Below are positions 23,951 to 63,100 of a stretch of DNA of 64,000 bases, piece after piece. Below the pieces are notes generated by a model that saw only the letters and a list, made by a program, of their open reading frames with translations, was not told the DNA's origin and did not search any database. Where the stretch lies: the NCBI GenBank assembly GCA_016213205.1, contig JACRAZ010000035.1:1-64000 (forward strand), read 5' to 3'. Source of the stretch: Burkholderiales bacterium (GTDB taxonomy: Bacteria > Pseudomonadota > Gammaproteobacteria > Burkholderiales > Burkholderiaceae_C). Numbering within the stretch: the first letter of the stretch is position 1; each line of letters begins with the position of its first letter. A program made the position numbers and the translations under genes.

Positions 23951-25591
<1,641 letters not shown>

Positions 25592-25643
25592 ACACCGGCG
25601 ACCACGGCCGTTCACGCCTGCGCGAGCGGCCGCCCGGGCACGT

Positions 25644-28475: not shown

Positions 28476-28527
28476 CGCGTCATTGTCGGCGCAGCCCACG
28501 GCGCGTGCGATTGAAGTTAGGGGTCTG

Positions 28528-28580
28528 CACGATCCCAAGATCGTGGGGGCGGGGTGCGCCTATGCGGCACGGAATGCCGC
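28528..28580. promoter_or_regulatory. Divergent T6SS promoter region with two perfect inverted repeats
   Basis: Between tssJ (leftward) and the TPR-lipoprotein gene (rightward) lie two inverted repeats: CACGATC-CCAA-GATCGTG (28528-28545) and GCGGCA-CGGAA-TGCCGC (28564-28580). No sigma-54 -24/-12 pair with correct spacing is seen. Their placement between the two arms of the T6SS suggests operator sites for a regulator not encoded here; alternatively they form 5'-leader hairpins. Confidence 0.45.
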
Positions 28581-42587: not shown

Positions 42588-43927
42588 ACGAAGTGCTCAA
42601 TGCCGCGTGGGAGCGGGCCGTCGGCGGGCTGGACTGGCTCAAGCAGGTGATCCTGGGCGAGTTCGCCGATCACCGCGACCTGTCCGCGATCATCGCCGAC
42701 ATGCTGGCGAGCTTCGTGCCCGGTGTCGTCATCGTCACCAGTGCGCGCGACCTCACCGCGGTGATCCTGCGCCTGGCCAAGCACCCCGAGAAACGCGACC
42801 AGGTCGAAGAATGGATGCTGCTGGTGGCCTGCGCCGTGCCGCTGGTGTTGCCCATCCTGGCGGCCGCGGCCGGCGCGGTGGCGGCTGGCGTTGGCGCCGT
42901 TGTCGGCGGCATCGCAGGCAGCGAAGCGGGCGCGGTGCTGCGCGCGGTGTGCCTGCTGCTCATCAAGAAGGGCGGCTACGTGCTGGCCGAGGTGGTGGGC
43001 TTCCTGCGCCGCTTCGTCAAGGGCGACATCCTCAAGGTGCTGCGCGACATCCAGTTCGTGAAGTACTCCGATGCGCTGGTGAAGTACATCGGCCAGCTCA
43101 TCGGCAAGCTCATCACGGCCATCCAGCGCCTGCGCGCCGAACTGCTCAAGATCGACGCGTTCCACTGGTTGGCCGACGTTCTCAAGAAGCTCGACGAGCT
43201 GGAGCGCGCGTTCTATGCGGTGCAGACCAGCGCCGTGAAGGCCATCCCGAAGGCGCTGGTGGAACTGGACATCCGGCTGCAGCAGGTGCTGGCCGAGGCG
43301 CTGCCGCACAACCCCAGGCCGGCGTTGGCGGGCGTTCCCGCGGCGCCGGGTGTTCCCGTGCCGGCCAGGCCCGAGCGCGTGCCGGCGATGCCAGGCAACC
43401 CGCTGGGAAGGCCCGAAGGCACGAAGCCGCCCGGGCCTCCGCCGCGAACGGGAGAGGGGCCGAACCTGCATCCGGAGAATCCGCGCGAGCCACACAGCGT
43501 GCCCGACCTGAATTCCAAGGCATCGCAGGACGTTGGCAAGGTCACCGCGCCTATCGACTTTGACGGACACATCCTCAATGCCGAGGTCAAGGCGAATGGA
43601 CAGGTTGTCGGCGGGCACTCGACAGCTTCAGGCAAAGTCAGGGTCATACCGGGCTCTCAATCCCCGCCCAACGCTCAAGGCGTCTACAGCGCACGGATCG
43701 AGGTCGCCGACCCGAACAATCCAAGCGCCTTCATACCGAAGACAAACAACGGTGGCGTCTCAACGATGTTTCCGGATTCCTGGAGTGCGGACCGTGTCAA
43801 AGTCGAGGTCGATGCCGCATATCAGAACAAGACTGTGTCGGGCAACAAGTGGAGCGGCACAACACCAAGTGGAGTGAAGGTCGAAGGCTACCTGAACCCC
43901 AAGACCACGGTCTATCCGAAGCTGTAA
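42584..43927 (+). CDS. VgrG1-linked T6SS effector with C-terminal EndoU-type RNase domain
   Basis: 447-residue predicted toxin. Residues 22-62 form a module shared with the vgrG2-linked effector (ILGxFxDH, SxVP, RD). A hydrophobic, Ala/Gly-rich segment at ~78-128 could span a membrane, ~140-240 is helical, and ~245-300 a Pro-rich linker. Residues ~318-447 resemble bacterial EndoU nucleases: GHIL (His329), VGGHS (His345), IPKTNN (Lys386) and TMFPDSWS (394-401) are catalytic-region candidates. EndoU toxins cleave RNA. The nuclease part uses visibly less GC-rich codons than the N-terminal part, suggesting a swapped cassette. It lacks a signal peptide. Confidence 0.82.
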   Translation: MNEVLNAAWERAVGGLDWLKQVILGEFADHRDLSAIIADMLASFVPGVVIVTSARDLTAVILRLAKHPEKRDQVEEWMLLVACAVPLVLPILAAAAGAVAAGVGAVVGGIAGSEAGAVLRAVCLLLIKKGGYVLAEVVGFLRRFVKGDILKVLRDIQFVKYSDALVKYIGQLIGKLITAIQRLRAELLKIDAFHWLADVLKKLDELERAFYAVQTSAVKAIPKALVELDIRLQQVLAEALPHNPRPALAGVPAAPGVPVPARPERVPAMPGNPLGRPEGTKPPGPPPRTGEGPNLHPENPREPHSVPDLNSKASQDVGKVTAPIDFDGHILNAEVKANGQVVGGHSTASGKVRVIPGSQSPPNAQGVYSARIEVADPNNPSAFIPKTNNGGVSTMFPDSWSADRVKVEVDAAYQNKTVSGNKWSGTTPSGVKVEGYLNPKTTVYPKL

Positions 43928-43936
43928 GCCACTGCG

Positions 43937-44326
43937 ATGAACCTCAAATTCTTCTGGACAATTTCGGACGATATGCCCAGCCCCAACTGCCAGTCCGATT
44001 CGGTCGACAAGGACGGCGTCAGTCCGCTCGAGTGCCTGTTGACAGACGATGGTGGACAGCCCTATCTGAGCACCATCCCCTGGCTGGAAGCCGGCTTGAA
44101 TTCCATTGACCTGGTCAAGACCGGCATGGCTGAGCGTCAGCATTGGGATCGTGAGTGCTGGGGTGCAGAGCTTTCGCAGAGTCAGGTTCGCGTCTATTCC
44201 CTGTATGACGAGAACTGCGCGGAAACCTTGAGTCTGAGCGCGTTTGAGCTGGCATTGTCGGGTTGGGCTGCGTTTCTTCGGTCGCAACCAGATGCTCAGC
44301 GTGTGACGACGATTCCACTGCCTTGA
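43937..44326 (+). CDS. Probable immunity protein for the EndoU effector
   Basis: 129-residue acidic cytoplasmic protein starting 9 bp after the EndoU effector. Its C-terminal pattern (LSLSAFELALSGWAAFL) resembles that of the protein at 44559 (FDLETYRLVLEGWRQFL), and both fit a YacL-like immunity fold. Position, acidity (favourable against a basic RNase domain) and atypically low GC support an immunity role; it is not shown by motif alone. Confidence 0.72.
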   Translation: MNLKFFWTISDDMPSPNCQSDSVDKDGVSPLECLLTDDGGQPYLSTIPWLEAGLNSIDLVKTGMAERQHWDRECWGAELSQSQVRVYSLYDENCAETLSLSAFELALSGWAAFLRSQPDAQRVTTIPLP

Positions 44327-44387
44327 TTTGACGCAGCTCGCAGGGACTGAACGGCCCGGAGACCTACGCCGCAGGTGATTGCGTGTC

Positions 44388-44537
44388 ATGGACGAGGACT
44401 TCAGGTATTTTGTCAAGGACAAGGGGTTCGGTCCTCCGACGCACGCCCAGCCTGTTCCTGTCACGTCCTCAGGGGTCCTGGTGGAGGGGTATCTGCAACC
44501 ACGCACAACGGTCTATCCGTTGTACCAAGGCCGCTGA
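44388..44537 (+). pseudogene. Orphan EndoU toxin C-terminal tail
   Basis: Short reading frame of 49 codons whose last part matches the end of the EndoU effector: SSGVLVEGYLQPRTTVYP against PSGVKVEGYLNPKTTVYP, 15 identities over 20 aligned positions including one residue to the left. No catalytic histidines are present upstream, so it cannot be an active toxin. It is best explained as the leftover end of a displaced toxin cassette, retained with its own immunity gene (44559). Confidence 0.75.
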
Positions 44538-44558
44538 TCGCCCCCTATAGAGCAACGC

Positions 44559-44981
44559 ATGAGAATCACTTTCAAGTACTTGAGTGGCGGCCAGCATGCG
44601 CTGCTGGGCGAGGTTCTGTATCCCGCGCAGCTCGCATCTGACGGTGCGAACCAGACTCGCTTTCAACGCTATCTCGCCAGCCCTATCGGCAGCGTTGCGC
44701 GCGACGTCGAGGCCTGTGACCGAGTGCTTTCGATGATCCGCGATGTTGAGCGGGGGCGCGTCGAAACCGCGCACCACGACGCCGACGACGTCGAGCTCAC
44801 GCTGACCCGGCATGCCGTTCAAGTCGACATCGTCGTGAATGATCAGTGGGTCGACAACCCGGACGGCCGGTTCGACCTGGAAACCTACCGCCTCGTGCTG
44901 GAGGGATGGAGGCAGTTTCTTGGGCTTCCCAAGCGCCTGGACTCGATCGTCGAAGTGGCCTTGCCTGACGACATCCACTGA
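44559..44981 (+). CDS. Second YacL-like immunity protein, linked to the orphan toxin tail
   Basis: 140-residue protein beginning MRITFKYLSGGQHALLGEVLYP, with a central DVELTLTRHAVQVDIVVNDQW and closing FDLETYRLVLEGWRQFLGLP. The overall pattern is YacL-like, shared in outline with the immunity candidate at 43937. It starts 21 bp after the orphan EndoU tail. It probably protects against a related EndoU toxin variant once encoded here or carried by kin. Confidence 0.7.
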   Translation: MRITFKYLSGGQHALLGEVLYPAQLASDGANQTRFQRYLASPIGSVARDVEACDRVLSMIRDVERGRVETAHHDADDVELTLTRHAVQVDIVVNDQWVDNPDGRFDLETYRLVLEGWRQFLGLPKRLDSIVEVALPDDIH

Positions 44982-45013
44982 CCGGCCCTTAATGTCACGG
45001 CACCCCCCAGGAC

Positions 45014-45625
45014 ATGAACCAAATACCTGTGTCCATGCTGGCCCTACAACCCTTCATCGATGCCCACCCGCCCAGCCCGACCGTCGTTCCGGCCCCGCCG
45101 GAGCTCATCGAGCGGTACCGGCGCCTGCTGCCGGATGCAATGCTGGCACTCTGGGCTGATCATGGCCTCGGCTTCTTCGGCGATGGACTCGTGCAGCTCA
45201 TCAACCCGGACGACTACCGGCGCAATCTCAACGCCTGGTTGATGCGGGACGAAGACGACCCGACGCGGCTGCCCATCGCGCTGTCCGGGTTAGGCCTCGT
45301 CCTGTATTACCGGCGCCTGAGCGACGATGGCGACGAGGACGTCTGCTACCTGGACCCTCACACATCCGAGTGCGATGTGCTTTCGTGGTCCTTGGAGGAG
45401 TGCTTCAACGACCTGCTTTGCAACCCCCAGGTGCTGCGGGACTCGCTGGACGCGCCAATGATGCGCGAAGCGGCCGCTCGCCTGGGGCCGTTGCGCCATG
45501 GCGAGATCTACAGCTACGAACCGGCGCTGCGGCTGGGCGGGTCGAAATCATCGGGCCACCTGGCGCGCTGCGACGCCCTCACGCAACTCGATCTTCTGCT
45601 CCAGTTGGCGCTTTCGGCCCCGTGA
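45014..45625 (+). CDS. GAD-like / Tdi1 C-terminal domain protein, orphan T6SS immunity
   Basis: 203-residue protein with an N-terminal GAD-like domain (residues ~10-80: LIERYRRLLPDAMLALWADHGLGFFGDGLVQLINPDDY) and a C-terminal DUF1851/Tdi1-C region (HGEIYSYEPALRLGGSKSS, DALTQLDLLLQL). In Agrobacterium, Tdi1 of this type neutralises the DNase effector Tde1. No cognate nuclease gene lies beside it, so it is an orphan immunity gene in the island. AGGAC precedes the ATG. Confidence 0.82.
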   Translation: MNQIPVSMLALQPFIDAHPPSPTVVPAPPELIERYRRLLPDAMLALWADHGLGFFGDGLVQLINPDDYRRNLNAWLMRDEDDPTRLPIALSGLGLVLYYRRLSDDGDEDVCYLDPHTSECDVLSWSLEECFNDLLCNPQVLRDSLDAPMMREAAARLGPLRHGEIYSYEPALRLGGSKSSGHLARCDALTQLDLLLQLALSAP

Positions 45626-50148: not shown

Positions 50149-50429
50149 GCGCAGCTCGCTCCGGCCCGCTGGGCCACTGTTTTTCGGCGTTATCAGGCTC
50201 GGCCTGGCCGCACCAGATGCTTGCAAGGGTGAATGGGTACTGGACAATGCGCGCTCTCCGCTGCGGGTTCAAGCCACGGGCCATGGCCGCCACGGCCACC
50301 GGGGGCGCAGCCTGCCAGATTTCGCCAGGAGTTGCTATCACCCAAAGCCCGCGGCCCTTCCGCCCCGCCCATCCGAGACCGGTTGCCGCGGTGGGCCCAC
50401 CCCTCACAAGCCCGACATAGCGTGTGCGC
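50149..50429. other. Intergenic region between divergent genes
   Basis: 281 bp between the minus-strand membrane protein and the M15 peptidase gene. It must hold both promoters. I see no clear palindrome, RNA gene or coding remnant. Confidence 0.5.
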
Positions 50430-51293
50430 ATGGTCTTCGGTGTCGTCCTGTACTTCCTGCTGGTGACAGCCGTGCTGGCCTGGCTGTTCCTGCCGCCTGT
50501 GCGCAGCCTGGCCGGCAGCGGGCTGCAGCGCGCCCGTGCCTGGGGGCAGGGCCGCTCGCGCCGCTGGGTGGCCAGCGGCACCCGGCGCGGCGCGGCCACC
50601 GGGCGCTGGCTGCACGGGCTGCAGGCCCGGGCGCGCGCCGGCTGGCGCAGCCACTGGCGCATGCTGTGCCCGGCGCTGCTCCTGCTGCTGGCGGTGCCGG
50701 CGCTGGCGCTGGCGCTGCGCGGCTGGTGGCGGCTGGACGGCTTCGACCACACCGCCACGCGGGTGGTGGACGAACGCGTGGCCGCCCTGCTGCAGGGCGA
50801 GCAGCTGGTGCCGCCCCCGCCGCTGCCGCCGGAGCTGTTCAGCACCCGCGAGCTCGAACTCTCGCGCCCCCTGGTGGGCACGGCCAGCCGCCAGTGGGAG
50901 CTTCTGGACGAAGACTTCCGCCGCCGCCTGCTGCTGGTGTTCAAGCTGCTGAGGCAGCAGCACGGCTACGAGGCGGTGCTGCTCGAGGGCTACCGCAGCC
51001 CCGAACGCCAGCAGGCGCTGGCGGCGCTGGGCCCCACGGTCACCCAAGCCGGGGCCTTTGAAAGTTATCACCAGCACGGCCTGGCCGCCGACGTGGCCTT
51101 CCTGCGCGAGGGCCGCATCGTGATCTCCGAGCGCGACGAATGGGCGATGCGCGGCTACGAGCACTATGGCGCGCTCGCCGCCTCGGTGGGCCTGACCTGG
51201 GGCGGCCAGTGGCGCGGCCTGAAGGACTACGGCCATGTCGAGCTGCGGCGCCCGGGCGTGCTGCCGTCGCCGCAGGCCCCCGCCGCGCGCTGA
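50430..51293 (+). CDS. Membrane-anchored M15 family peptidoglycan peptidase (TagX-like)
   Basis: 287-residue protein with two hydrophobic segments (~2-22 and ~80-97) and a C-terminal M15 zinc peptidase domain. SYHQHGLAAD (212-221) supplies His214 and Asp221, DYGHVEL supplies His269, and GYEHYG (Glu244) the catalytic base; LLEGYRSPERQQAL is typical of VanY/CwlK enzymes. In Acinetobacter an L,D-endopeptidase of this kind (TagX) opens peptidoglycan for T6SS assembly. Position next to PAAR and tssM supports a similar role here, as inference. ATG 50430 chosen; GTG 50424 possible. Confidence 0.82.
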   Translation: MVFGVVLYFLLVTAVLAWLFLPPVRSLAGSGLQRARAWGQGRSRRWVASGTRRGAATGRWLHGLQARARAGWRSHWRMLCPALLLLLAVPALALALRGWWRLDGFDHTATRVVDERVAALLQGEQLVPPPPLPPELFSTRELELSRPLVGTASRQWELLDEDFRRRLLLVFKLLRQQHGYEAVLLEGYRSPERQQALAALGPTVTQAGAFESYHQHGLAADVAFLREGRIVISERDEWAMRGYEHYGALAASVGLTWGGQWRGLKDYGHVELRRPGVLPSPQAPAAR

Positions 51294-51337: not shown

Positions 51338-51607
51338 ATGGCCAGACCCGTCATCCTTCTCGGCGACCGCCACAGCCACGGCGGCGTCGTGATCTCGGCC
51401 GCACCGGCCACCGACCACTACGGCATCCCGATCGCCCGCATGGGCGACCGCGTCACCTGCCCGGTGCCGGGCCACGGCGTGAACGTCATCGCCAGCGGCG
51501 ACCCCACCTGCATCATCGATGGCCAGCCGGTGGCCCGCAGCGGCGACCGCACGGCCTGCGGCGCGGTGATCTTCCATCGCCAGCAACCCACGATCGACCA
51601 CCTCTGA
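51338..51607 (+). CDS. T6SS PAAR spike-tip protein
   Basis: 89-residue stand-alone PAAR protein that caps the VgrG trimer. It opens ARPVILLGDRHSHGGVV and carries the repeating HG/GDPT/GDRT turns (VPGHGVNVIASGDPTCIIDGQPVARSGDRTACG) with His and Cys zinc ligands. AGGAGG lies upstream of ATG 51338. No toxin extension, so it serves as a general tip for both VgrGs. Confidence 0.93.
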   Translation: MARPVILLGDRHSHGGVVISAAPATDHYGIPIARMGDRVTCPVPGHGVNVIASGDPTCIIDGQPVARSGDRTACGAVIFHRQQPTIDHL

Positions 51608-51639: not shown

Positions 51640-53124
51640 ATGAAGAAGATGATCCAGGGCACGGCCCTGCTCGTGGCGGTGTGCTGCGGCGTGTGGCTCG
51701 CGGTGCTGTGGCGCTGGCAGGCCACGCCACGCGCGCTCAGCGGCACCGATGTGGCCGTCTACCTGGTGGTGCTGCCGCTGGTGGTGTTCGGCTTCGTGCT
51801 GGCTTTTCGCTGGGCCGGGCGGGCCGCCTGGGCCGCCGCGCCCGGCGGTGCAGGCGCGGCCGCGCCGGTGGCCCCCGGCAGCGGCCCGGGCACGGCGCCC
51901 AGGGCCAGCACCGAAGCGGCCCAGCGCCACGCCACCGTGCAGCTGCTCGCCGCCGCGCTGAACTGCGCCTGCGCCGACCGCCCGCCCGCGTTGCTGGCCG
52001 CCGGTGCGGCCGGCCAGCCGCGGCCCGCGCTGGACAAGCAACTGCTCAATGCCGAAGGGCTGCCGGTGATGGCCTGCCGCATCGCCGAGCTGCCGCTGGA
52101 CGCGCTGCAGGCCTGCCTGCCGCTGCTGCGGCCCGTGCCGGCCGCCGATGCCGACCCCGTCGACCCGCCAGCCCTGCACGTGCAACGCGCGCTGGCCGCG
52201 CTGGCCGCGCCGCTGGACCAGGCGCTGCAGGGCCTGGCGCCCTGGCAGGCCTGGTTGGCCGATGCACGGTCGCCCGTGCCGGTGCGGGTGCTGCTGGCCT
52301 GGCCCGACCTCTGGCCGGAGGACGACGGCGCGCTCGCGCTGGCCTGGTTGCGGCAGCGGCTCGCCAGCGCCGAAGGGCCCGGCGCCGGCTGGGTCTGGCG
52401 CATCGAGGGCCGGGCGATGACAGGCGTCGAGCTGCTCGCCGAGGCCGACCGCCGGCTGCATGCCGGCGGCCGCCACCGTTCGCCCGAGCTGCTGCTGCTG
52501 GCCGCCTGCCACAGCGACCTGAGCGACGAGGCCATCGCGGTGCTGGAGCACCAGCGCCGGCTGTTCTCGCCGGCCGAGCGACCGAAGGGCCTGATCCCCA
52601 GCGAATCGGCCGCGGTGCTGGTGCTGGCGCCCGCGGACTGGCCGGCCGCGCCGGACACCCCCGACGCCCCGGTGCACCTGCACCGCCCCGCCATCACCCG
52701 CCGCGACAAGGCCATCGACGCCCCGGGCCGCGTGAGCAGCGACACGCTGGTGCACACCCTCACCGACGCACTGGCCGCCGCGCAGCGCCCCGCGGCCGAG
52801 GTGGCCGCGCTGGTGTGCGATGCCGACCAGCACAGCCCCCGCGGCACCGAGCTGTTCGGTGCCCTGCTGGCCACGCTGCCGCAGCTCGACCCGACCGAGC
52901 ACCTGTGCATGACCGGCGAGCTCGCCGGCCAGGGCGAGGCCGGGCCGCTGATGGCGGTGGCCGCCGCCGCCGCGCGCGCACGGGCCGACAACGCGCCGTG
53001 TGTCGCGCTCTCGGTGGGCGACAGCCACTGGCGCCTGGCACTGCTGGCGCGCCCCGCACCCACGGCACCCACCGCGCCCGCCGCTGCCACACCGGCTTCC
53101 CGCTCAGCTGCCCCCGCCGCATGA
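51640..53124 (+). CDS. T6SS-linked two-TM protein with thiolase-like C-terminal region, function unknown
   Basis: 494-residue protein. Two N-terminal membrane segments (~7-26 and ~38-59), an Ala/Pro linker, then a large cytoplasmic or periplasmic part. The C-terminal third (DTLVHTLTDALAAAQ, CMTGELAGQGEAGPLMAVAAAAARAR, CVALSVGDSHWRLALLAR) recalls beta-ketoacyl-synthase/thiolase-like folds, but no catalytic Cys-His-His set is evident. It lies between PAAR and tssM, 28 bp before the latter, as in some Burkholderiales T6SS loci. Possible membrane-complex accessory; no assigned function. Confidence 0.72.
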   Translation: MKKMIQGTALLVAVCCGVWLAVLWRWQATPRALSGTDVAVYLVVLPLVVFGFVLAFRWAGRAAWAAAPGGAGAAAPVAPGSGPGTAPRASTEAAQRHATVQLLAAALNCACADRPPALLAAGAAGQPRPALDKQLLNAEGLPVMACRIAELPLDALQACLPLLRPVPAADADPVDPPALHVQRALAALAAPLDQALQGLAPWQAWLADARSPVPVRVLLAWPDLWPEDDGALALAWLRQRLASAEGPGAGWVWRIEGRAMTGVELLAEADRRLHAGGRHRSPELLLLAACHSDLSDEAIAVLEHQRRLFSPAERPKGLIPSESAAVLVLAPADWPAAPDTPDAPVHLHRPAITRRDKAIDAPGRVSSDTLVHTLTDALAAAQRPAAEVAALVCDADQHSPRGTELFGALLATLPQLDPTEHLCMTGELAGQGEAGPLMAVAAAAARARADNAPCVALSVGDSHWRLALLARPAPTAPTAPAAATPASRSAAPAA

Positions 53125-53152: not shown

Positions 53153-56100
53153 ATGAACCGCTTCTGGACCTTTCTGTTCGATGCCCGCGTGCTCAGCGTG
53201 CTGGGGCTGGCCGCGCTGGCCGCGTTCCTGTTCATCGGGGCGGCCGAGCTGCAGGTGGCGCTGGTGTGGGCCGGCCTCGCCCTGGCGCTGGTGCTGCTGG
53301 TGTGGCTCATCGTCTGGGGCGTGCGCAAGTGGCGTGCGGTGAAGGCCGCGCGCCAGCTCGAAGCCGCGATCGAGGACGATGCCGAACAGGCCACGCTGCG
53401 CATCCGCGCCGAAGACCGCGCGCCGGCCCAGGCCGTGAAAGAGCGGCTGCTCACCGCGGTGAAGACCATCCGCAGCTCGCGCCTGGGCCAGCTCACCGGC
53501 CGCGCCGCGCTGTACGAGCTGCCCTGGTACATGGTGATCGGCAACCCGGCCGCGGGCAAGAGCACCGCGGTGGTCAAGTCGGGCCTGAACTTCCCGCTCG
53601 CCGCCGACGGCGGCAAGCCCGAAGCCGCCGTGATCCAGGGCATCGGCGGCACCCGCAACTGCGACTGGTTCCTCACCAGCGAAGGCATCCTGCTGGACAC
53701 CGCCGGCCGCTACTCGGTGCACGAGGAAGACCGCGACGAATGGCTGGGCTTCCTCGGCCTGCTGAAGAAGCACCGGCCCAAGGCCCCGATCAACGGCATC
53801 CTGATCGCCGTCAGCGTGGCCGAGCTGGCCCAGGGCAAGCCGGAGGCCGCGATCGCGCTGGCCAAGCGCCTGCGCCAGCGGGTGCAGGAGCTGACCGAGA
53901 AACTCGAGGTCTTCGCCCCGCTGTACCTGGTGTTCACCAAGGCCGACCTGGTGTCGGGCTTTGCCGAGTTCTTCGAGGACTTCGACCGCGCCGAGCGCGA
54001 CCGCGTCTGGGGCGCCACGCTGCCCTACGTGCCCGATGGCCGCAGCGACGCGGTGGCCCTGTTCGACCAGCACTTCGACGAACTGCGCGACGGGCTGAAG
54101 GAGATTGCGCTGGCCCGCATGTCGCTGCAGCGCGGCCAGGCCCTGCCCACCGGGCTGCTGACCTTTCCGCTCGAATTCGCCGCGGTGAAGCCAGCGCTGC
54201 GGGCCTTTGTCGCCACGCTGTTCGAAGACAACCCCTACCAGTTCCGCCCGGTGTTCCGCGGTTTCTACTTCACCAGTGCGGTGCAGGAAGGCGCGGCCAC
54301 CAGCCGTGCCAGCGAAGCGGTGGCGCGCCAGTTCGCGCTGGGCGCGCGTTCGGAGCGCACCACCGCGCGCGTGGTGGCGAGCAACGGCTTCTTCCTGAAA
54401 GACCTGTTCCAGCGCGTGATCTTTGCCGACCGGCAGCTCGTGCGGCGCTACGCCAGCCGCAGCAAGCAGCGCACCCGCCTGGCCGCGTTTGCGGTGGCGG
54501 TGGCAACGCTGGCGCTGCTGCTGGGCGGCTGGAGCTGGGCCTACCTGGGCAACCGCCAGCTCATGGCCGACGTGCAGGCCGACCTGGCCAAGGCCGGCAG
54601 GCTGCAGGCCGAACGCATCGACCTCGCGTCGCGGCTCGAAGCGCTGGAAGTGCTGCAGTACCGCATCGAGCAGCTTGCGGCCTGGAACGACAAGCGCCCG
54701 TTCGGCTTGGGGCTGGGCCTGTACCAGGGCGAGACCATCGAACGCACGCTGCGGCGCGAATACTTCGACGGCCTGCGCCAGGTGATGCTGCAGCCGGTGG
54801 CGCGCGCGATCGAGGGCTACCTGGGCGAAGTGAACGGCAACGCCGCGCAACTGCAGCCGATGGCCCGCGCGCCGGAATCGGGGGCGCCGGTGCTGGTGCC
54901 GGTGGCGGCGGTGGCGCCAGGCGCAGCGCCGGCCGGCGCACCACGCCCGCCCTCGCGCTATGTCGAGGCCTCGCCGGGCGACGTGGAGGAGGCCTACAAC
55001 GCCCTGAAGACCTACCTGATGCTGGCCGAGCGCCAGCGCATGGAGCCCGGCCACCTGAAGGACCAGATCGCCCGCTTCTGGCGCGGCTGGCTCGATGCCC
55101 AGCGCGGCAACCTGCCCACCGAGCAGCTCAAGCGCCGCGCCGAGAGCCTGATCTCGTTTGCGATGGAGAACCTGCAGGACCCGGCCTTTCCCACGCTGGA
55201 GACCAACTTCAACCTGGTGGACCAGACGCGCGGCAACCTGCGCCGCGTGATGCGCGGCATGCCCGCGCGGGAGCGGGTGTATGCCGAAGTGAAGGCACGC
55301 GCGGCCACCCGCTTCGCGCAGGTGACGGTGGCACAGATCGTGGGCGAGGCCGGCCGCGCCAGCATTGCCGGCAGCCAGGTGATCCCGGGCACCTTCACCC
55401 GCGAGGCCTGGGACGGCTACATCGACAAGGCCTTCAAGGAGGCCGCCAACGGCGAGCTGCAAAGCACCGACTGGGTGCTGCAGACGGCCGCCCGCGACGA
55501 CCTCACGCTCGAAGGCAGCCCGGACCAGATCCGCAAATCGCTCACCGAGCTGTACAAGGCCGAGTACGTGCGCGAGTGGCAGCGCTTCATGCAGGGCGTC
55601 GCGGTGGCCGAGTTCGGCAGCTTCGACGCCGCGGTGCAGCACATGAACCGCCTGGGCGACGCGGCCGATTCGCCGATCAAGCGCCTGCTCACCACGCTGG
55701 TGGACCAGACCTCCTGGGACAACCCGGCGCTGCTGAACGAAAAGCTCGGCCAGGTGCAGCGTGGCTTCATCGAGTGGTTCAAGCAGAGCATCCTGCGCCA
55801 GGCGCCCTCGCGGGTGGAGGTGCGGGTCGATGTCAGCGGCACCGGCAACGGCGTGGCCATGGGACCGATCGGCCGCGAGTTCGCCGCGCTGCACCGCCTG
55901 ACGATGCCGCGCGACAGCAACCCGCCGCTGCTGAACGACTACCTCAAGGCCCTGGGCGCGGTGCGCTCGCGCTTCAACCAGATCAAGACCCAGGGCGACC
56001 CCGGGCCCGCGGCACGCAAGCTGATGGCGGCCACGCTGGAAGGCAGCCCATCCGAGCTGGTGGATGCGGTGCGCCTGGTGGAGGAGCAGATGCTCACCGG

Positions 56101-57022
56101 CATGACCGATTCGGCCCGCGCCACGCTGCGCCCGCTGCTGCTGCGGCCGCTGATGCAGAGCTTCGCGGTGCTGGTGCCGCCCACCGAGACCGAGCTCAAC
56201 CGGGCCTGGGTGGCGCAAGTGCATGAGCCCTTCCAGCGCTCGCTGGCGGGCAAGTACCCGTTCGATGCGAACTCACGCGTGGAGGCGGTGCCGCAGGAGA
56301 TCGCCAAGCTCTTCGGCCCCGAGGGCGCGGTGGCCCGCTTCGCCAACGACACGCTGGGCCCGCTGGTGATGCGCCGCGGCGACAGCATCGGCCCGCGCAG
56401 CTGGCTGGACATGAGCGTGCGGCTGCGGCCCGAGTTCAGCGCGCAGTTCGCGCACTGGGTGGCGCCGCTGGACGGCGCGGCCGGCAGCGCCGCGCCCGCG
56501 GCCGCCGGTGCCGCCACGCCCCCCCCGCCCACGCAGACGAGCTTCCAGATCCTGCCGCAGGGCGCCCCGGGCCTGAGCGAGTACACGATCGAGATCGACG
56601 GCCAGCAGCTGCGTTACCGCAACGCCGCCGCGGCCTGGGTGTCGATGGTCTGGCCGCACCCGGGTGGCACGCCGGGGGCGCGCATCACCGGCGTCACGCT
56701 CGACGGCCGCAGCATCGAGCTGCTGAACGTGCCCGGCCGCTTCGGCCTGCAGCGCATGTTCGAAACCGCCGAGCGCCGCAAGCTCGCCGACGGCAGCAAC
56801 GAGCTCAGCTGGGCCCAGGGGCCGCACGCGGTGACGATCACCTTGCGTGTCATCAGCCAGCCGGGCGCCGCGCCGCCGCCACCGGCCGGCGGCGCCCAGG
56901 CCGCACCCACACCGGGCGCCGGCGGCCTGCGGGGCCTGCGCCTGCCCGCGATGGTGGCCGGCGACGACTCCGGCGCCACGCTGGCGCAGGCGCGCGGCGC
57001 CGCATCGGGGGTGAGCCGATGA
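53153..57022 (+). CDS. tssM: T6SS membrane-complex ATPase-like protein TssM (IcmF)
   Basis: 1289-residue TssM. Two N-terminal membrane helices (~12-30, ~34-56), a cytoplasmic NTPase domain with intact Walker A GNPAAGKST (130-138), a third helix at ~443-467 (LAAFAVAVATLALLLGGWSWAYLGN), then a large periplasmic domain that contacts TssJ. The C-terminal ~60 residues are Ala/Pro/Gly-rich. GGAGG precedes ATG 53153. tagF follows. Confidence 0.96.
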   Translation: MNRFWTFLFDARVLSVLGLAALAAFLFIGAAELQVALVWAGLALALVLLVWLIVWGVRKWRAVKAARQLEAAIEDDAEQATLRIRAEDRAPAQAVKERLLTAVKTIRSSRLGQLTGRAALYELPWYMVIGNPAAGKSTAVVKSGLNFPLAADGGKPEAAVIQGIGGTRNCDWFLTSEGILLDTAGRYSVHEEDRDEWLGFLGLLKKHRPKAPINGILIAVSVAELAQGKPEAAIALAKRLRQRVQELTEKLEVFAPLYLVFTKADLVSGFAEFFEDFDRAERDRVWGATLPYVPDGRSDAVALFDQHFDELRDGLKEIALARMSLQRGQALPTGLLTFPLEFAAVKPALRAFVATLFEDNPYQFRPVFRGFYFTSAVQEGAATSRASEAVARQFALGARSERTTARVVASNGFFLKDLFQRVIFADRQLVRRYASRSKQRTRLAAFAVAVATLALLLGGWSWAYLGNRQLMADVQADLAKAGRLQAERIDLASRLEALEVLQYRIEQLAAWNDKRPFGLGLGLYQGETIERTLRREYFDGLRQVMLQPVARAIEGYLGEVNGNAAQLQPMARAPESGAPVLVPVAAVAPGAAPAGAPRPPSRYVEASPGDVEEAYNALKTYLMLAERQRMEPGHLKDQIARFWRGWLDAQRGNLPTEQLKRRAESLISFAMENLQDPAFPTLETNFNLVDQTRGNLRRVMRGMPARERVYAEVKARAATRFAQVTVAQIVGEAGRASIAGSQVIPGTFTREAWDGYIDKAFKEAANGELQSTDWVLQTAARDDLTLEGSPDQIRKSLTELYKAEYVREWQRFMQGVAVAEFGSFDAAVQHMNRLGDAADSPIKRLLTTLVDQTSWDNPALLNEKLGQVQRGFIEWFKQSILRQAPSRVEVRVDVSGTGNGVAMGPIGREFAALHRLTMPRDSNPPLLNDYLKALGAVRSRFNQIKTQGDPGPAARKLMAATLEGSPSELVDAVRLVEEQMLTGMTDSARATLRPLLLRPLMQSFAVLVPPTETELNRAWVAQVHEPFQRSLAGKYPFDANSRVEAVPQEIAKLFGPEGAVARFANDTLGPLVMRRGDSIGPRSWLDMSVRLRPEFSAQFAHWVAPLDGAAGSAAPAAAGAATPPPPTQTSFQILPQGAPGLSEYTIEIDGQQLRYRNAAAAWVSMVWPHPGGTPGARITGVTLDGRSIELLNVPGRFGLQRMFETAERRKLADGSNELSWAQGPHAVTITLRVISQPGAAPPPPAGGAQAAPTPGAGGLRGLRLPAMVAGDDSGATLAQARGAASGVSR

Positions 57023-57095: not shown

Positions 57096-58097
57096 ATGAG
57101 CCGGCACATGCCCACCGAGATCATCTACTTCGGCAAGCTGCCCGCGCGCGGCGATTTCGTGCGCAATGGCGACGCACAAGGCCTCACCGAACGCCTGGAC
57201 CTCTGGCTCACGCAGGGCATCGAGCGCCTGGCGCGCGAGCCGCGCTGGAAGGAGGTGTACGACCAGGCCCCCTCGGCCGATTTCGCCTTCCTGGGCGTGA
57301 AGCGGCGCGCCGTGGTGGCCGGCCACCTGATGGCCAGCACCGATGCCTCGGGCAGGCGCTTCCCCTTCGTGGCCGTGGGCAAGCTGGAGGTCGAGGCGCC
57401 GCTGCCCTTCATGCAACGTGCGCCGATGGCCTTGTCGCCGCTATGGCTGCAGCTCGGCCAGGCCGCCGACCGCGCCCATGCCGCCGACGACGTGGTGCCC
57501 GCGCTGAACCTGCTGGACCGGCTGCGCCCCGCGGTGGACATCGACCCCCGCGCCCACGACGCGGGCTACCGCGAGTTCCTGGAGCTGCACACGCTGGGCA
57601 GCTTGCAGGCCCTGCTGCGGGATGCCGCCGAAGAAACCGACCTGCGGCGCGCGCTGCTGGGCCTGGGCCTGCTGCTCGCGCCGGTGCCCGGCAGCGGCGC
57701 GCAACGGCTCGAGCGGGGCGTGCGGCTGCCGATGCCAGCCGACCCGCAACTGCAGCCGCTGGTGGCCACGCTGTGGCTGGACCTGGCGGCGCGCTTCCTG
57801 GCCCGCAGCGATTTCGAGGTGGCCCTGTTCCTGCCGCGCCGCGCGCCGGACGGCACCGCCAGCGGTGCGCCCGGCATGGCGCTGGGCTTCTCCGGCGATT
57901 CACCCGCGCTGCTGCACGCGCTGCTCGACCCCGGGGCCGGCGGCGACCACTTCGTGGACCTGTTCGCGCCCGAATGGGTGGACGACTCGGCCGAGCTGGA
58001 CTACCCGCTGCGCAAGCTCAACAGCTACCTGCCGCAGCCCGCGCTGTCGCTGGCGCAGGCGCGTGCCACCTTCAACGAAGCCTTTCTGGGGGAATGA
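57096..58097 (+). CDS. tagF: T6SS-associated protein TagF
   Basis: 333-residue protein with the TagF N-terminal domain (EIIYFGKLPARGDFVRNGDAQGLTERLDLWL), which in Pseudomonas represses T6SS firing post-translationally by sequestering Fha. Its presence implies the threonine-phosphorylation pathway (PpkA/PppA/Fha), whose genes are not in the window. The C-terminal ~190 residues are less conserved. It overlaps the OmpA-type gene by ATGA. Confidence 0.9.
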   Translation: MSRHMPTEIIYFGKLPARGDFVRNGDAQGLTERLDLWLTQGIERLAREPRWKEVYDQAPSADFAFLGVKRRAVVAGHLMASTDASGRRFPFVAVGKLEVEAPLPFMQRAPMALSPLWLQLGQAADRAHAADDVVPALNLLDRLRPAVDIDPRAHDAGYREFLELHTLGSLQALLRDAAEETDLRRALLGLGLLLAPVPGSGAQRLERGVRLPMPADPQLQPLVATLWLDLAARFLARSDFEVALFLPRRAPDGTASGAPGMALGFSGDSPALLHALLDPGAGGDHFVDLFAPEWVDDSAELDYPLRKLNSYLPQPALSLAQARATFNEAFLGE

Positions 58098-59023
58098 GCG
58101 TGAACCGACTCCATCGCCACCCGCTGCGGCGCGCCGGCCTGGCTGCCGTGGTGATGCTGGCCGCGCTGGCCCCGGCCACCGGCCAGCCGCTGGCCGCGGC
58201 CTCCACCGCCCCCGCACCGCCGCCCGCACCAGCGCCCGCCCCCGCGCCATCGGCAGCGCCCTCGCCGGCACCGTCGCCGGCAGCAGCCCGGCCGGCCATC
58301 GCGCCACCGGTGGCCAGCCCCGCCGCGGCGCCCCAGGTCGTGGTCTCCGGCACGGTGCCCGACGAGGCCACGCGCGCGGCCATCCTGGCCCGCGTGCGCG
58401 AGGTCTATGGTGCCGAGCGGGTGGTCGACCAGCTCGGCGTGGGCCCGCTGGCCGCGCCGCCGCAGTGGGGCCAGCAGGTGCAGAAGCTGCTCACCGCCGA
58501 CATCAAGCGTGTCTCGCAGGGCCAGCTGCGCATCGAGGGCAACATGGTCGAGATCACCGGCCAGGTGGATAACGCGCAAACACAGCAGCAGCTGGTGCGC
58601 GGCATCGCCACCCGGCTGGACAACCCCACCTACACGGTGCGCGACAACCTGCGCGTGGGCGCCAGCGGCCAGCAGGTGCTGGACGCGGCGATGGCCAACC
58701 GCATCGTGGAGTTCGAGCCCGGCAACGCCACGCTCACCGCCGCCGGGCTGCAGGTGCTGGAACACCTGCTGCCGGTGCTGCAGAAGCTGGCCGGCCGGCG
58801 CTTCGAGATCGTGGGCCACACCGATTCCGACGGCGCCCGGCCGCAGAACCTGCTGCTCTCGGCGGCGCGGGCCGAATCCGTCAAGGCCTACCTGGTGCAA
58901 CGCGGCATCCCGGCCTCGGCGCTGGTGACCACGGGCGTCGGCCCCGACCGGCCGGTGGCCGACAACACCAGCGCCGAAGGCCGCGCCCGCAACCGGCGCA
59001 TCGAGTTCAGGCTGCTGGCCTGA
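58094..59023 (+). CDS. OmpA-type peptidoglycan-binding protein of the T6SS (TagL-like role)
   Basis: 309-residue exported protein. Signal region ending LAAAS, an Ala/Pro linker (~38-75), BON-like modules (~78-190), then an OmpA/MotB domain (~200-309) with peptidoglycan-contact residues in HTDSDGARPQNLLLSAARAESVKAYL and RARNRRIEF. TssL here lacks a peptidoglycan-binding domain, so this protein may anchor the membrane complex to the wall. Coupled to tagF by ATGA and convergent with tssA (no gap). Confidence 0.87.
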   Translation: MSVNRLHRHPLRRAGLAAVVMLAALAPATGQPLAAASTAPAPPPAPAPAPAPSAAPSPAPSPAAARPAIAPPVASPAAAPQVVVSGTVPDEATRAAILARVREVYGAERVVDQLGVGPLAAPPQWGQQVQKLLTADIKRVSQGQLRIEGNMVEITGQVDNAQTQQQLVRGIATRLDNPTYTVRDNLRVGASGQQVLDAAMANRIVEFEPGNATLTAAGLQVLEHLLPVLQKLAGRRFEIVGHTDSDGARPQNLLLSAARAESVKAYLVQRGIPASALVTTGVGPDRPVADNTSAEGRARNRRIEFRLLA

Positions 59024-59911
59024 TCAACCGGGCCGCGGCGGCTCCACGCCCAGCAACTCTTCCAGGTGCGCGAGCGAACCGCCGTCCTTCACCACGGTGC
59101 GCAGCCAGCCGTGCAGATCCATCGTGCCCCAGCGTGCGGCCTTGTCGGCCAGGTAGGCCACCGGGCTGTGCGGCTCGGTGCGGCGGAAGAACTCCGCCAC
59201 CTGGCGCAGCTGCTGCAGGGCCTGGGCCCGCGTCTGCAGGGGGCCGGCGCCCGACGTGGCCGCACCGGGCGCCGCGGCGCCTGCAGCGTTGGGGCCCGGC
59301 TCGGCCGCGGGGTCGGCGGCATCGGCGGGCAGGTCGGCCAGCACGGCCTTCAAGGCCTCTCGCGCGCCCACGAAGCCGGGGCCTTCGGCGCCCAAGCGCG
59401 CGTCGGCCGCCGCCTGCAGCTGCGCCAGCGCCTGCAGCGCACCGGCCAGCGCAATACGCGAGGGTGCCGCGGCGCCTGCCCGCACGAGCTGGCGCGCCAG
59501 CGGCGCCACCCGGCCCAGCAGCCAGCTCAGGCTGCCCACACGCAGCTCGTGGTCGCCGCCCTCGGGCAGCGGATGCAGGCCCTCCCAGTGGCGTGTGATC
59601 ATCGCCGCCGCCAGTGCCAGGCCATCGGCCAGGCCGCCGAAGCCGCGTTCGTGGGCCCAGCCCTCGGCCAGCCAGCCCACCAGGCGCAGGTCCTTGCTGC
59701 GCTCGCGCAGCAGCGTTTCGCACAGCGCGCACAGCGCGGGCCAGTCGGCCACCTTGGGCTCCTTGCCCTTCTCCTTCCACTCGCCCAGCGGCAGGCTGGC
59801 GTCGTCCTCGCGCCGCAGCTCGGCGATGGTGTCGAACTCGGCGCTGAACGACAGGTCTTCGCCGCAAGGCGGACCCTCGGCCATCGGCTGCAGCAGCGTT
59901 TCCAGGTCCAT
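59024..59911 (-). CDS. tssA: T6SS protein TssA (ImpA N-terminal domain)
   Basis: 295-residue TssA, which primes or caps tube and sheath assembly. It opens MDLETLLQPMAEGPPCGEDLSFSAEFDTIAELRRE (ImpA_N) with the DWPALCALCETLLRERSKDLRLVGWLAEGW block. The C-terminus has LRQVAEFFRRTEPHSPVAYL, the short TssA C-terminal type. ATG 59911 with GAGG upstream is chosen over an upstream TTG. It is divergent from vgrG2, with 215 bp between. Confidence 0.93.
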   Translation of the reverse strand: MDLETLLQPMAEGPPCGEDLSFSAEFDTIAELRREDDASLPLGEWKEKGKEPKVADWPALCALCETLLRERSKDLRLVGWLAEGWAHERGFGGLADGLALAAAMITRHWEGLHPLPEGGDHELRVGSLSWLLGRVAPLARQLVRAGAAAPSRIALAGALQALAQLQAAADARLGAEGPGFVGAREALKAVLADLPADAADPAAEPGPNAAGAAAPGAATSGAGPLQTRAQALQQLRQVAEFFRRTEPHSPVAYLADKAARWGTMDLHGWLRTVVKDGGSLAHLEELLGVEPPRPG

Positions 59912-60126
59912 CGCACACACCTCGTCCAGCCCCAAAGGCGCGGATTCTGCCCCTGCCGTGCTAACGCCGGAAAGGGGCGAACATGCGGTTACAGCAGCAC
60001 TGGCATCTTGGGGGGTTGTTGGCGTGCGGCGCGCTTCGATAATCCGCCGATCTTCCGGGCCGCGGCCATGCCGTCAGCGGCGGTGGCCCGGGCACCATTC
60101 CCAAAAACACCCAGGGAGCCGAGGGC
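59912..60126. promoter_or_regulatory. Divergent promoter region tssA / vgrG2
   Basis: 215 bp that must hold the promoters of tssA (leftward) and vgrG2 (rightward); AGGGAG serves as the vgrG2 ribosome binding site. It is somewhat AT-richer near 59985-60050. No clear operator or sigma-54 site found. Confidence 0.5.
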
Positions 60127-63100
60127 ATGACGCCCCCATTGCCCGTGCCCGCAACACCGGCCTTGCCCGGCCTGCCCTCACCGGGCCCTCTGGCGCAGCA
60201 GCTCGGGCACACGCTCGGCCAGGCACTGGGTCCATCGCTGGCCAGCGCGCTGGGTTCATCACTGGGCAACGCGCTAGGCCCATCCCTGGGCAACGCGCTG
60301 GGGCAGCTGGCGGGCCAGCAGCTTCAGCAGGCCTTGGCACGGCTGGACTTCCCTGCGCTGTTCGACCAACGCGGGCGCATGCTGCAGATGCAGACGGCCC
60401 TGCCCAGGCTGGCGCTGATCCCCGAGCGCCTGGTGCTGCACGAGGCGGTGAACCAGCCCTTCGAGCTGGTGGTGGATTGCATCAGCACCTCGGCCACCTT
60501 CGAGCTCAAGCACCTGATCGGCGAGCAGATGTCGCTGCAGTTGCTGCAGCCCGATGGCCGCTACAAGCCCTGGCACGGCTATGTGTTCGAGGCCGCGCAG
60601 TTGGGCGCCGACGGCGGCCTCGCGCGCTACCGGCTGGTGATGCGCCCGTGGCTGATGTTCCTGGCCCACCGGCGCGACTGCTTCATCCACCAGGACCAGG
60701 ATGTGCGCGCCATCCTGGAAGACATCTTTGCCGACTACCCGCAGGCCAGCTTCCGGTTCGAGCTGAGCGAGCCGCTGCGCCAGCGCAGCCTGTGCGTGCA
60801 GTACCGTGAATCGGACTTCGAGTTCGTGAGCCGCCTGCTGGCCGAGGAAGGCCTGAGTTATCACTTCGAGCACGACAACACCGGCGCCGCGCTCGAATCC
60901 GGCGCCAGCGCGCTGCACTGCCTGGTCATCACCGACCGCCGCGCACAGCGTCCCGAACTGGGCGAGGTGCGCTTCACCGCCCAGCACCCCACCGCCCAGC
61001 TCGAAGGGCAGAAGGACAGCATCACCGCCTTCGCCGCGCGCCGCGCGCTGCATGCCAATGCGGTGACGCTGGGCGCCTGGAACTACAAGCACCTGGCCGG
61101 CACCACGGCCGAGGTGGCCACCGCGCTGGACATCGGCGAGGTGCCCGAGCTGGAACACTACGACGGCGCGGGCGCCTGCCGCTACGAGCACCCGCTGCAT
61201 GCCGAGCGCGCGGCCGAGCTGGCGCTCACCGCGCTGGAGCTGGACTTCAAGCGCTTCGAAGGCCAGGGCGGCGCGCGCCACTTCGAGGCCGGGTACACGT
61301 TCAGCCTGATCGACCACCCGCTGTACGGCGCCGGTGCGAGCGGCGGACACACCGGCGGCTTCGTCAGCCATGCGCGGCCCGACAACCACTTCGTGCTGCT
61401 GGCGGTGGAGCACCACATCACCAACAACCTGGGCGCGCAGGCGGCCGAGCTGCTGGGCGCCACCGAGCTGGAGCACGGCACCTACCGCAACCACTTCCAT
61501 GCCGCGCCGGCGGCTGCGGCCGTGGTGCCGCGCTTCATCCGCAAGCCCACCGCCCCGGGCCTGCAGACGGCGCTGGTGGTGGGCCTGGCCGGCGAGCCGC
61601 TCACCACCGACCGCGAGCACCGCGTGAAGATCCAGTTCCCGTGGCAGCGCGGCGTGGCCCCGCTGCCCGGCGGCCTGGGCCACGACGAACGCTCGCCCGA
61701 CGCGCAGGGCAACGCGCCGGGCAACGAATCCTCCGGCACCTGGGTGCGCGTGGCCAGCCCCGCGGCCGGCGCCAACTGGGGCGCGGTGTTCACCCCGCGC
61801 ATCGGCACCGAGGTGGCGGTGGAGTTCATCGAGGGCGACATCGATCGCCCGCTGATCCTGGGCACGCTCTACAACGGCCAGGACCTGCCGCCCTGGTCCG
61901 CCGGTATCGATGCCGGCGTCAACCACCCGGGCACGATCTCGGGCCTGCACACCCATGCGCTCGATGGCGCGGGTTTCAACCAATGGGTGGTGGACGACGC
62001 CACCGGCCAGCTGCGCATGCGCCTGCTGTGCAGCTACACCGCCGCCGAGGTGGGCCTGGGCCACCTGATCCAGCAGAGCGCCACCTCGGCCCAGCGCGGG
62101 CCCTGGCGCGGCGCGGGCTTCGAGGTCAGCACCCAAGGCTGGGCCAGCCTGCGGGCGGCCAAGGGGCTGCTGGTCAGCACCACCGCCCGCGCGGGCAGCT
62201 ACGGCTCGGCCCAGTCCACCCAGCTCGACGATGCCGAGGCCGTGGCCAAGCTGCAGGCCGCGCGCGCGCTGGGCAGCACGCTCACCACCGCCGCCCGCAA
62301 GGGCCAGGCGCATGGCCTCTCCACGCACGATGCCGGCCAGGCGATGGACACGCTCACCGCCGCGGTGGACCTGGCCCAGCGTGGCCGCCACGAGGCCAGC
62401 GTGGGCGGCCAGCGCGCGCAGCAGCAGGATGCGGCGCGGGCCGACACCGACGCAGTGCACGCGTTTGCCGACCCGGTGCTGCTGATGGATGCGCCCAGCA
62501 CGGTGGCCTTTGCCACCGAGGCGCAGTTCGCCAGCACCGCGGGCCAGGACACCAGCCTCGTCGCCCACGGCGACAGTCACCAGGCCGCCGCCCACACCTA
62601 CGCCTCGGTCTCGGGCAAGACCACCAGTCTGTACGCCCACGACGGCGGCATCAAGGCCTTTGCGGCCAACGGCCCCGTCTCGCTGCGCGCCCACACCGAT
62701 GCGATGCAGATCCTGGCCGACCAGGAACTCACGATCTACTCGATCAACGACGAGATCCACATCGACGCCAAGGAACGCATCGAGCTCTTCGACGGCAAGA
62801 GCTCCATCGTGCTCGAAGGCGGCGACATCACCTTCACGATGCCGGGGCTGTACTCCGCGCCGATGAGCACGCACGAGTTCATGGCTGCCGGGGGCGGGCA
62901 GCCCGATCTGTCCGCGCTGCCGCGGGGCACGGTGAAGGAGCCGCCGAACGAACTGGAGCTGCACTTCCACTACGACGATCTGTCGCCGGTGGCGGGTGCC
63001 ACCTACACGGTGACCTACGAGACCGGCGAGGTCTACCAGGGCAGGCTCGACAGCGCCGCCTACACGCTGATTCCCGGCGTTCCAAAGGGCCGCTACCGGG

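Follow-up and report, generated by a model that had tools for sequence, protein, structure and literature searches.

A TagZ/TsmK-type pseudo-ketosynthase with a predicted two-helix anchor, probably accessory to the T6SS membrane complex, in a TssJ-containing cluster of a Burkholderiales bacterium

The window, i.e., the whole stretch of 64,000 nucleotides that was analysed here, carries a T6SS gene cluster in which an open reading frame (ORF) of 494 amino acids is the third in a tight row encoding an M15_4 peptidase (TagX-like), a PAAR protein, the 494-aa protein, TssM, TagF, and an OmpA/BON protein. The intergenic gaps flanking this ORF are 32 bp and 28 bp. The genes of the cluster to which we refer below are the following:

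25644-26441, minus strand: TssL
26438-27778, minus strand: TssK, start provisional
27834-28538, minus strand: TssJ lipoprotein of the same T6SS cluster, start provisional (PF12790, E = 7e-26)
50424-51293, plus strand: M15_4 peptidase, TagX-like (Pfam, E = 7.4e-12)
51338-51607, plus strand: PAAR protein, directly upstream of the tagZ/tsmK-type gene (Pfam, E = 8e-25)
51640-53124, plus strand: tagZ/tsmK-type gene with ATG start for a pseudo-ketosynthase of 494 aa with a predicted anchor of two transmembrane (TM) helices (ORF, AlphaFold2, structure match, orthology)
53153-57022, plus strand: TssM (NCBIfam, E = 4.9e-214)
57096-58097, plus strand: TagF (Pfam)
58094-59023, plus strand: OmpA/BON peptidoglycan-binding protein (Pfam)
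59024-59935, minus strand: TssA (Pfam, NCBIfam)

The remaining T6SS genes, also in the window, encode a TPR protein, TssB and TssC (both called via annotated matches), Hcp, a gp25/TssE-like protein, TssF, VgrG, and a protein ending in an EndoU domain. The TPR protein that follows TssJ is TagM-like by its position, and another gene of the cluster is presumably ClpV, as judged from its position. A second, different TssM and a second TssJ are encoded on another contig of the same genome. In an effector-immunity island at 39489-45625 within the T6SS cluster, VgrG is followed by a protein whose C terminus is an EndoU nuclease domain (42584-43927). The island also includes two small ORFs that have no Pfam match and a GAD-like/Tdi1-type immunity protein (45014-45625). 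A second VgrG gene lies just past TssA at 60127-63267.

The 494-aa protein has no Pfam or NCBIfam match at E ≤ 1. Homologues turned up in 5 out of 60 relatives and in 19 of 300 genomes of the order (own genome counted in both cases, with several of the 19 being weak or partial) as well as in 134 stretches of named genomes, and this recurrence shows that the ORF is a real gene.

The original prediction, made from the sequence of the window alone, had described a protein of 494 residues with two membrane segments and a C-terminal part reminiscent of thiolases but devoid of recognizable catalytic residues, and all of this was borne out. An AlphaFold2 model based on an alignment of 20 homologues (mean pLDDT 86.2, pTM 0.78) shows two N-terminal helices, a low-confidence linker (residues 68-96), and a remainder that forms one globular domain, with the following parts:

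51643-51723, plus strand: TM helix 1, residues 2-28 (AlphaFold2; W19 and W26 invariant in a 47-row alignment)
51742-51834, plus strand: TM helix 2, residues 35-65 (AlphaFold2; P46 invariant in the 47-row alignment)
51928-53061, plus strand: pseudo-ketosynthase domain, residues 97-474 (AlphaFold2, Foldseek, FabF superposition, hhalign)
52417-52419, plus strand: M260, aligned with the catalytic Cys163 of FabF and variable in the family (bridge alignment)
52582-52629, plus strand: PKGLIPSESAAVLVL stretch, residues 315-330, counterpart of the ketosynthase (KS) "GxxxGEGAG" strand (P320, E322, and A324 invariant)
52819-52821, plus strand: D394, aligned with the catalytic His303 of FabF (Asp in 98 of 100 rows)

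A Foldseek search of the PDB with this model returned 704 matches at E ≤ 0.001, with a ketosynthase/chain-length factor at the top. All of the 50 matches listed are ketosynthases or related thiolase-fold enzymes except for the T6SS adaptor Tla3 (structure 8yz3), which ranks second. The best superposition by VIA-align is with FabF (4jb6_A; Z 30.6, 341 residues aligned at an rmsd of 3.6 and 11% identity, model range 96-474). The structure check suggested with the original prediction therefore confirmed a ketosynthase/thiolase-type fold for the modeled domain rather than an unrelated one.

This fold is the one argument for an active ketosynthase-like enzyme that works on lipids near the machine, and the catalytic positions speak strongly against it. 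When FabF is mapped onto the family through a bridge alignment with soluble relatives described below, Cys163 falls on the variable M260, His303 on D394, and His340 on the variable A429, while Lys335 has no mapped counterpart. Across 100 family rows, no column of the domain is conserved as Cys, His, or Lys in more than 80% of cases. The Cys-His-His residues of the beta-ketoacyl-ACP synthase (KAS) class are missing, which places the protein outside this class and makes enzymatic activity very unlikely judging from the alignment.

Basic residues are found before helix 1 (K2, K3), after helix 2 (R57, R61), and in or near the loop between them (R25, R31). By the charge rule, the first two pairs favor a cytoplasmic location of the soluble domain, but weakly so because of the third pair.

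Relatives of the protein have been named AsaB, TsmK, or TagZ. In Acinetobacter baumannii, the asaB gene lies between tssEFG and tssM (PMC3602014), and its product was characterized in 2023 as TsmK, a protein with two TM helices and a predicted, catalytically dead pseudo-ketoacyl-synthase domain that likewise appears as a large cytoplasmic domain in the topology prediction (PMC10564176). A. baumannii TsmK binds TssM, TssL, and TagX and stabilizes the membrane complex, and Hcp secretion is lost upon deletion of its gene (PMC10564176). In 2019, a study of Ralstonia, Rubrivivax, Achromobacter, and Xanthomonas had introduced the name tagZ for homologues of asaB and also noted the paar-tagZ gene pair (PMC6612558). 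The words "thiolase" and "ketoacyl" are absent from the text of PMC6612558, which does not appear to assign a fold or mechanism to TagZ, and our literature search found no paper linking betaproteobacterial tagZ with a pseudo-ketosynthase.

To connect the window protein with this family, we used a profile of 100 rows composed of the window protein, 80 loci of named genomes, and 19 others (18 of them from the order of the window), without any named Acinetobacter. In an A. baumannii T6SS locus (L187), this profile matched the ORF at 25327-26736 with 98.3 bits (E = 1.9e-30), followed by 0.5 bits for the next ORF. The matched ORF encodes 470 aa, ends 30 bp before tssM, and agrees with the TsmK residues printed in PMC10564176 (I5, W24, F36, I57, Y58, S470, and a single Cys), though the reported retained His366 is an Asn in this ORF with a His at position 363. 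Comparison of the family with the A. baumannii ORF by hhalign gave a probability of 98.2 (E = 3.2e-14, 381 columns). By contrast, blastp of the window protein against A. baumannii TsmK yielded only 20% identity over 151 aa, with E = 2e-8 when compared to this one sequence, which falls short of the published TsmK threshold of E < 1e-20 at ≥60% coverage (PMC10564176). With pairwise similarity this weak, a threshold set on blastp could have given the impression that TsmK is specific to Acinetobacter.

The window protein shares with TagZ the TM helices near the N terminus (AlphaFold2, conserved residues), a TagX-containing T6SS-1-type cluster with PAAR immediately upstream, and homology to A. baumannii AsaB. 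It shares with TsmK in the sense of PMC10564176 the pseudo-ketosynthase fold without catalytic Cys but not the lack of TssJ, which is encoded at 27834-28538. Profile and synteny identify the window protein as an orthologue of A. baumannii TsmK/AsaB. We thus consider it probable that the gene encodes the TagZ/AsaB/TsmK orthologue of the TagX-type (Burkholderia T6SS-1/Acinetobacter) lineage, which would assist the T6SS membrane complex as an accessory subunit with a dead KS domain as scaffold. The original suggestion of such a subunit next to tssM is supported by the interactions of the A. baumannii orthologue. However, the novelty that had been anticipated for a degenerate metabolic fold recruited to a secretion machine did not hold up: the recruitment is real but already described in Acinetobacter (PMC10564176), and the gene had its name as tagZ (PMC6612558). 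What is new here is that TsmK is not specific to Acinetobacter and that the window cluster has TssJ as well.

We surveyed the distribution of the family among the 134 relatives found in named genomes, of which 80 were kept; all have titles of betaproteobacterial genera or families except for L038 ("Gammaproteobacteria bacterium"). TssM is the next recognized gene at 57 of these 80 loci, arranged as M15-PAAR-TsmK-TssM (36), M15-TsmK-TssM (18), or without an M15 gene in the stretch read (3). Another 20 loci have TssF and TssK as neighbors and no TssM, 13 of them with VgrG or PAAR, and the last 3 fit neither arrangement. The earlier proposal that the protein is specific to this type of T6SS therefore holds for the most part, with the TssF-TssK loci as the exception. 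Two further genomes have a TssF-TssK locus with only TssF, TssK, and TsmK among the genes sought. Islands of the form TssF-TssK-(VgrG-PAAR)-TsmK without adjoining TssM were seen at L048, L046, L306, and L309-L310, with Massilia among the hosts, and the genome of L048 (G716) has no TssM or TssJ match at all.

Profile matches were obtained in 35 of 369 genomes of the class, only 4 of them full-length (own genome included) and the others partial; the three partial matches that we inspected (L130, L135, L136) are soluble KS-like proteins. A tblastn search of a plasmid collection with a TsmK found nothing. This collection contains several chromosome-sized records with gyrB, dnaA, or core T6SS genes that are filed as plasmids, e.g., NZ_CP077849.1. 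Overall, these data correct the published scope of the subunit. It had been described as specific to Acinetobacter and linked to a lack of TssJ, but it occurs widely in Burkholderiales and, in the window, together with TssJ.

The nearest sequence relative that we found is a soluble thiolase-like protein of DUF2169/PIPY spike-loading operons, as judged by profile comparison. The 100-member family profile scores all four soluble proteins of ca. 340 aa with 32.6-45.6 bits, while the next best score outside the family in the same small database is 5.4 bits for a Tla3 homologue, similar to the 5.0 bits of the best unrelated ORF of the window, with FabF at -0.9. An hhalign comparison of the TsmK family with the soluble family spans 324 columns, or residues 94-472 of the window protein, at a probability of 97.2 (E = 2.9e-11). 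FabF is matched by the soluble family both in hhalign (probability 95, E = 3.8e-8) and by HMM (E = 9e-7 in a database of ca. 60 sequences). A direct hhalign comparison of TsmK and FabF is not significant (probability 0.5), and there is one weak direct match, to the PKS 5erb (E = 0.0028). The homology of TsmK with ketosynthases is therefore based on the fold and the bridge via the soluble family plus the weak 5erb match.

Two soluble proteins that we scanned (L119, L121) belong to NCBIfam NF004798/PRK06147. The window protein has no match to this model at E ≤ 1 (curated cut-off 342 bits), and three of three other TsmK-type proteins tested match it weakly and below the cut-off. At the two of the four soluble loci that were annotated, L119 and L121, the soluble gene lies between DUF2169 and Tox-PAAR-like genes, which is the "synteny type A" of PMC11883445. 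That study describes the exact function of the thiolase-like gene as not known and cites transposon data from P. mirabilis in which inactivation of each gene of the cluster abolished effector-dependent killing (PMC11883445). A soluble thiolase-like protein similar to the PRK06147 type is also encoded in the window's own genome, on contig C3 at ca. 81112-81807 (L130), directly after a gene read by eye as DUF2169-like. This genome hence has a soluble dead ketosynthase in addition to the membrane-tethered one.

This kinship, the soluble gene's place in these operons, and the P. mirabilis phenotype all point to another reading in which TsmK mainly is a membrane-tethered loading factor for the spike tip or effectors that would bind PAAR/VgrG and bring the tip to both the membrane complex and the baseplate. 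Gene neighborhoods agree with it insofar as PAAR lies between M15 and TsmK at 36 of the 54 named loci where both M15 and TssM occur, as the 20 TssF-TssK loci lack TssM and mostly have VgrG or PAAR, and as paar-tagZ pairs are reported from triple-vgrG islands of Burkholderia (PMC6612558). However, no PAAR was detected beside TsmK at the other 18 of these 54 loci. The second rank of Tla3 in the Foldseek search fits as well, but this match concerns the fold only: hhalign with the single Tla3 sequence is not significant, the HMM score of 5.4 bits is about that of the unrelated window ORF, and the window protein matches neither Tla3_N nor Tla3_C of Pfam. More importantly, the loss of Hcp secretion in the A. 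baumannii mutant is a defect of the machine rather than of specific effectors, and its TsmK binds TssM, TssL, and TagX (PMC10564176). We therefore regard a role mainly in loading as a serious but lesser possibility. Apart from this question, a Tla3 homologue of 556 aa with Tla3_N and Tla3_C Pfam domains (L118; 637-2307, minus strand) begins with two hydrophobic segments by eye and thus has the layout of TsmK.

For A. baumannii, it has been proposed that TsmK helps to make up for a missing TssJ (PMC10564176). To see how the two genes co-occur, we tested 28 genomes from the 80 named loci and compared the positions of TssJ, TssM, and locus ranges by hand with contigs matched by coordinates. TssJ is present in 23 of them. 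Of the 28, 7 have TssJ at a distance of up to 25 kb from the TssM linked to TsmK, 7 have it near a different TssM, 3 have TssM but no TssJ, and 11 are ambiguous. In four TssJ-less cases (G710, G717, G718, and G722), stretches of ca. 100 kb each contain TssL, TssK, the TagM-like gene, TssB, TssC, Hcp, TssF, ClpV, and TsmK-TssM, but TssJ is missing at the very place that it occupies in the window, i.e., between TssK and the TagM-like gene, and a profile of 10 TssJ sequences gave no match.

In a separate and less biased draw, we queried 349 genomes of the order with the window TssM and scored up to two candidates per genome, by which some clusters of the lineage may be missed. Counting the window's own, 22 TssM of the lineage were retrieved, the other 21 at 53-57% identity, and their clusters comprise 15 with and 7 without TsmK. 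All 7 clusters without TsmK carry TssJ. Among the 15 with TsmK, 5 have TssJ, 2 lack it (G350a, G676a), and 8 have their TssK/TssJ region outside the DNA read. PAAR sits at the TsmK spot in 13 of the 15 clusters with TsmK versus none of the 7 without it, which again agrees with a loading role. Clusters were also read in 9 of 13 genomes with a more distant TssM (36-45% identity in the listed segments), and all 9 have TssJ and none has TsmK by profile. A plasmid-borne Paraburkholderia cluster (L188) likewise has TssJ and no TsmK. Four genomes with a TsmK-less cluster (G042, G377, G379, and G703) showed no TsmK elsewhere with an early 5-row profile and few candidates scored per genome. However, since G350 and G676 have TsmK elsewhere in the genome and relocated tagZ is reported for Burkholderia (PMC6612558), any "loss" of TsmK is to be understood as loss from the cluster.

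We then placed these patterns on a midpoint-rooted TssM tree of 48 rows (39 with and 9 without TsmK). Besides the distant G617, the rows without TsmK form four separate nests within TsmK-positive branches; 5 label changes are needed, of which at least 4 are forced by well-supported branches, compared to an average of 8.4 in shuffles. Apart from Acinetobacter, the rows that lack TssJ fall into a single clade with full support that has 15 rows, of which 6 were read directly and 6 called from genome-wide counts, with L054, L064, and L111 outside both; Acinetobacter stands apart on a long branch. The tree is consistent with an old TsmK whose gene disappeared from the cluster on several occasions, in each case with TssJ retained, and with losses of TssJ only where TsmK was retained. 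The clusters of the lineage that we read carry TssJ, TsmK, or both and never neither, with 8 of them read partly and TsmK possibly located elsewhere. This either-or pattern is only suggestive because the number of events is small and "absent" means absent from the cluster.

At face value, the same pattern favors TsmK as a substitute for TssJ, given that the TssJ-less clusters read all have TsmK (L187, G710, G717, G718, G722, G350a, and G676a, with absence in L187 judged by the window TssJ query only) and that the seven clusters without TsmK have TssJ. Nevertheless, we consider this reading improbable. The window cluster and others carry both genes, the TsmK domain is predicted to be cytoplasmic whereas TssJ is an outer-membrane lipoprotein, and the single TssM clade of TssJ-less rows other than Acinetobacter implies few independent events of TssJ loss. 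Furthermore, a GS-linker motif of TssM that is said to accompany the absence of TssJ was found in only 1 of 12 TssJ-less tails of the clade, i.e., at chance level, which leaves this idea unsupported outside Acinetobacter; the A. baumannii tail was clipped by match boundaries.

Returning to the accessory subunit that we favor, the two TM helices would hold TagZ/TsmK in the inner membrane, and the cytoplasmic KS-fold domain that lost its catalytic Cys and His would serve as a binding scaffold. By analogy to the A. baumannii orthologue, the window protein probably stabilizes TssL-TssM, presumably on the cytoplasmic side, at the meeting point of TssLM with the PAAR/VgrG tip and the baseplate. It would strengthen the complex alongside TssJ and not replace it. 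Because of the gene pairs with PAAR, VgrG, and TssF-TssK islands and the kinship with proteins of spike operons, we predict that the cytoplasmic face contacts the spike tip or baseplate and docks them onto the membrane complex, as these sequence data suggest.

A broader and more speculative proposal, which we consider rather unlikely as a whole, is that TagZ/TsmK is the membrane-tethered branch of T6SS dead ketosynthases for the handling of spike tips and docks the PAAR tip and baseplate onto TssLM. It would then be an old part of the TagX lineage rather than an invention of Acinetobacter, and TssJ and TsmK might in part compensate for one another, such that a cluster can lose one of the two but has to keep the other. 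Beyond TsmK, the link to the DUF2169/PIPY proteins could bring several T6SS proteins with thiolase fold under one idea, i.e., dead ketosynthases as docking scaffolds for spike and baseplate. Environmental, non-pathogenic hosts with both genes make the roles of TssJ and TsmK separable by gene removal.

Compared to known systems, the 494-aa protein has its fold in common with FabF (beta-ketoacyl-ACP synthase II) but lacks the catalytic Cys and His of this enzyme, and their direct profile comparison is not significant. Tla3 (PMC6560169; PDB 8yz3) is another T6SS protein with a thiolase-like fold, but the P. aeruginosa protein is reported to be cytoplasmic and to serve one effector only (PMC6560169), whereas the window protein is predicted to be membrane-anchored. 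The soluble NF004798/PRK06147 proteins have a domain homologous to that of TsmK, with the catalytic residues also gone in the aligned member and an Asp likewise at the His303 position, but they comprise only ca. 340 aa, have no two-helix membrane anchor, and are linked to DUF2169 and PIPY-type PAAR-like genes. TsmK/AsaB of A. baumannii (PMC10564176) resembles the window protein in having two N-terminal TM helices at the same place, a dead pseudo-ketosynthase domain, and a gene directly upstream of tssM. The two are homologous by profile at ca. 17-20% identity, and the Acinetobacter cluster has no TssJ and its PAAR gene after the OmpA gene, whereas the window has TssJ and PAAR directly upstream. 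TagZ of beta- and gammaproteobacterial T6SS-1 clusters (PMC6612558) shares with the window protein the T6SS lineage, the paar-tagZ pair, and the N-terminal TM helices.
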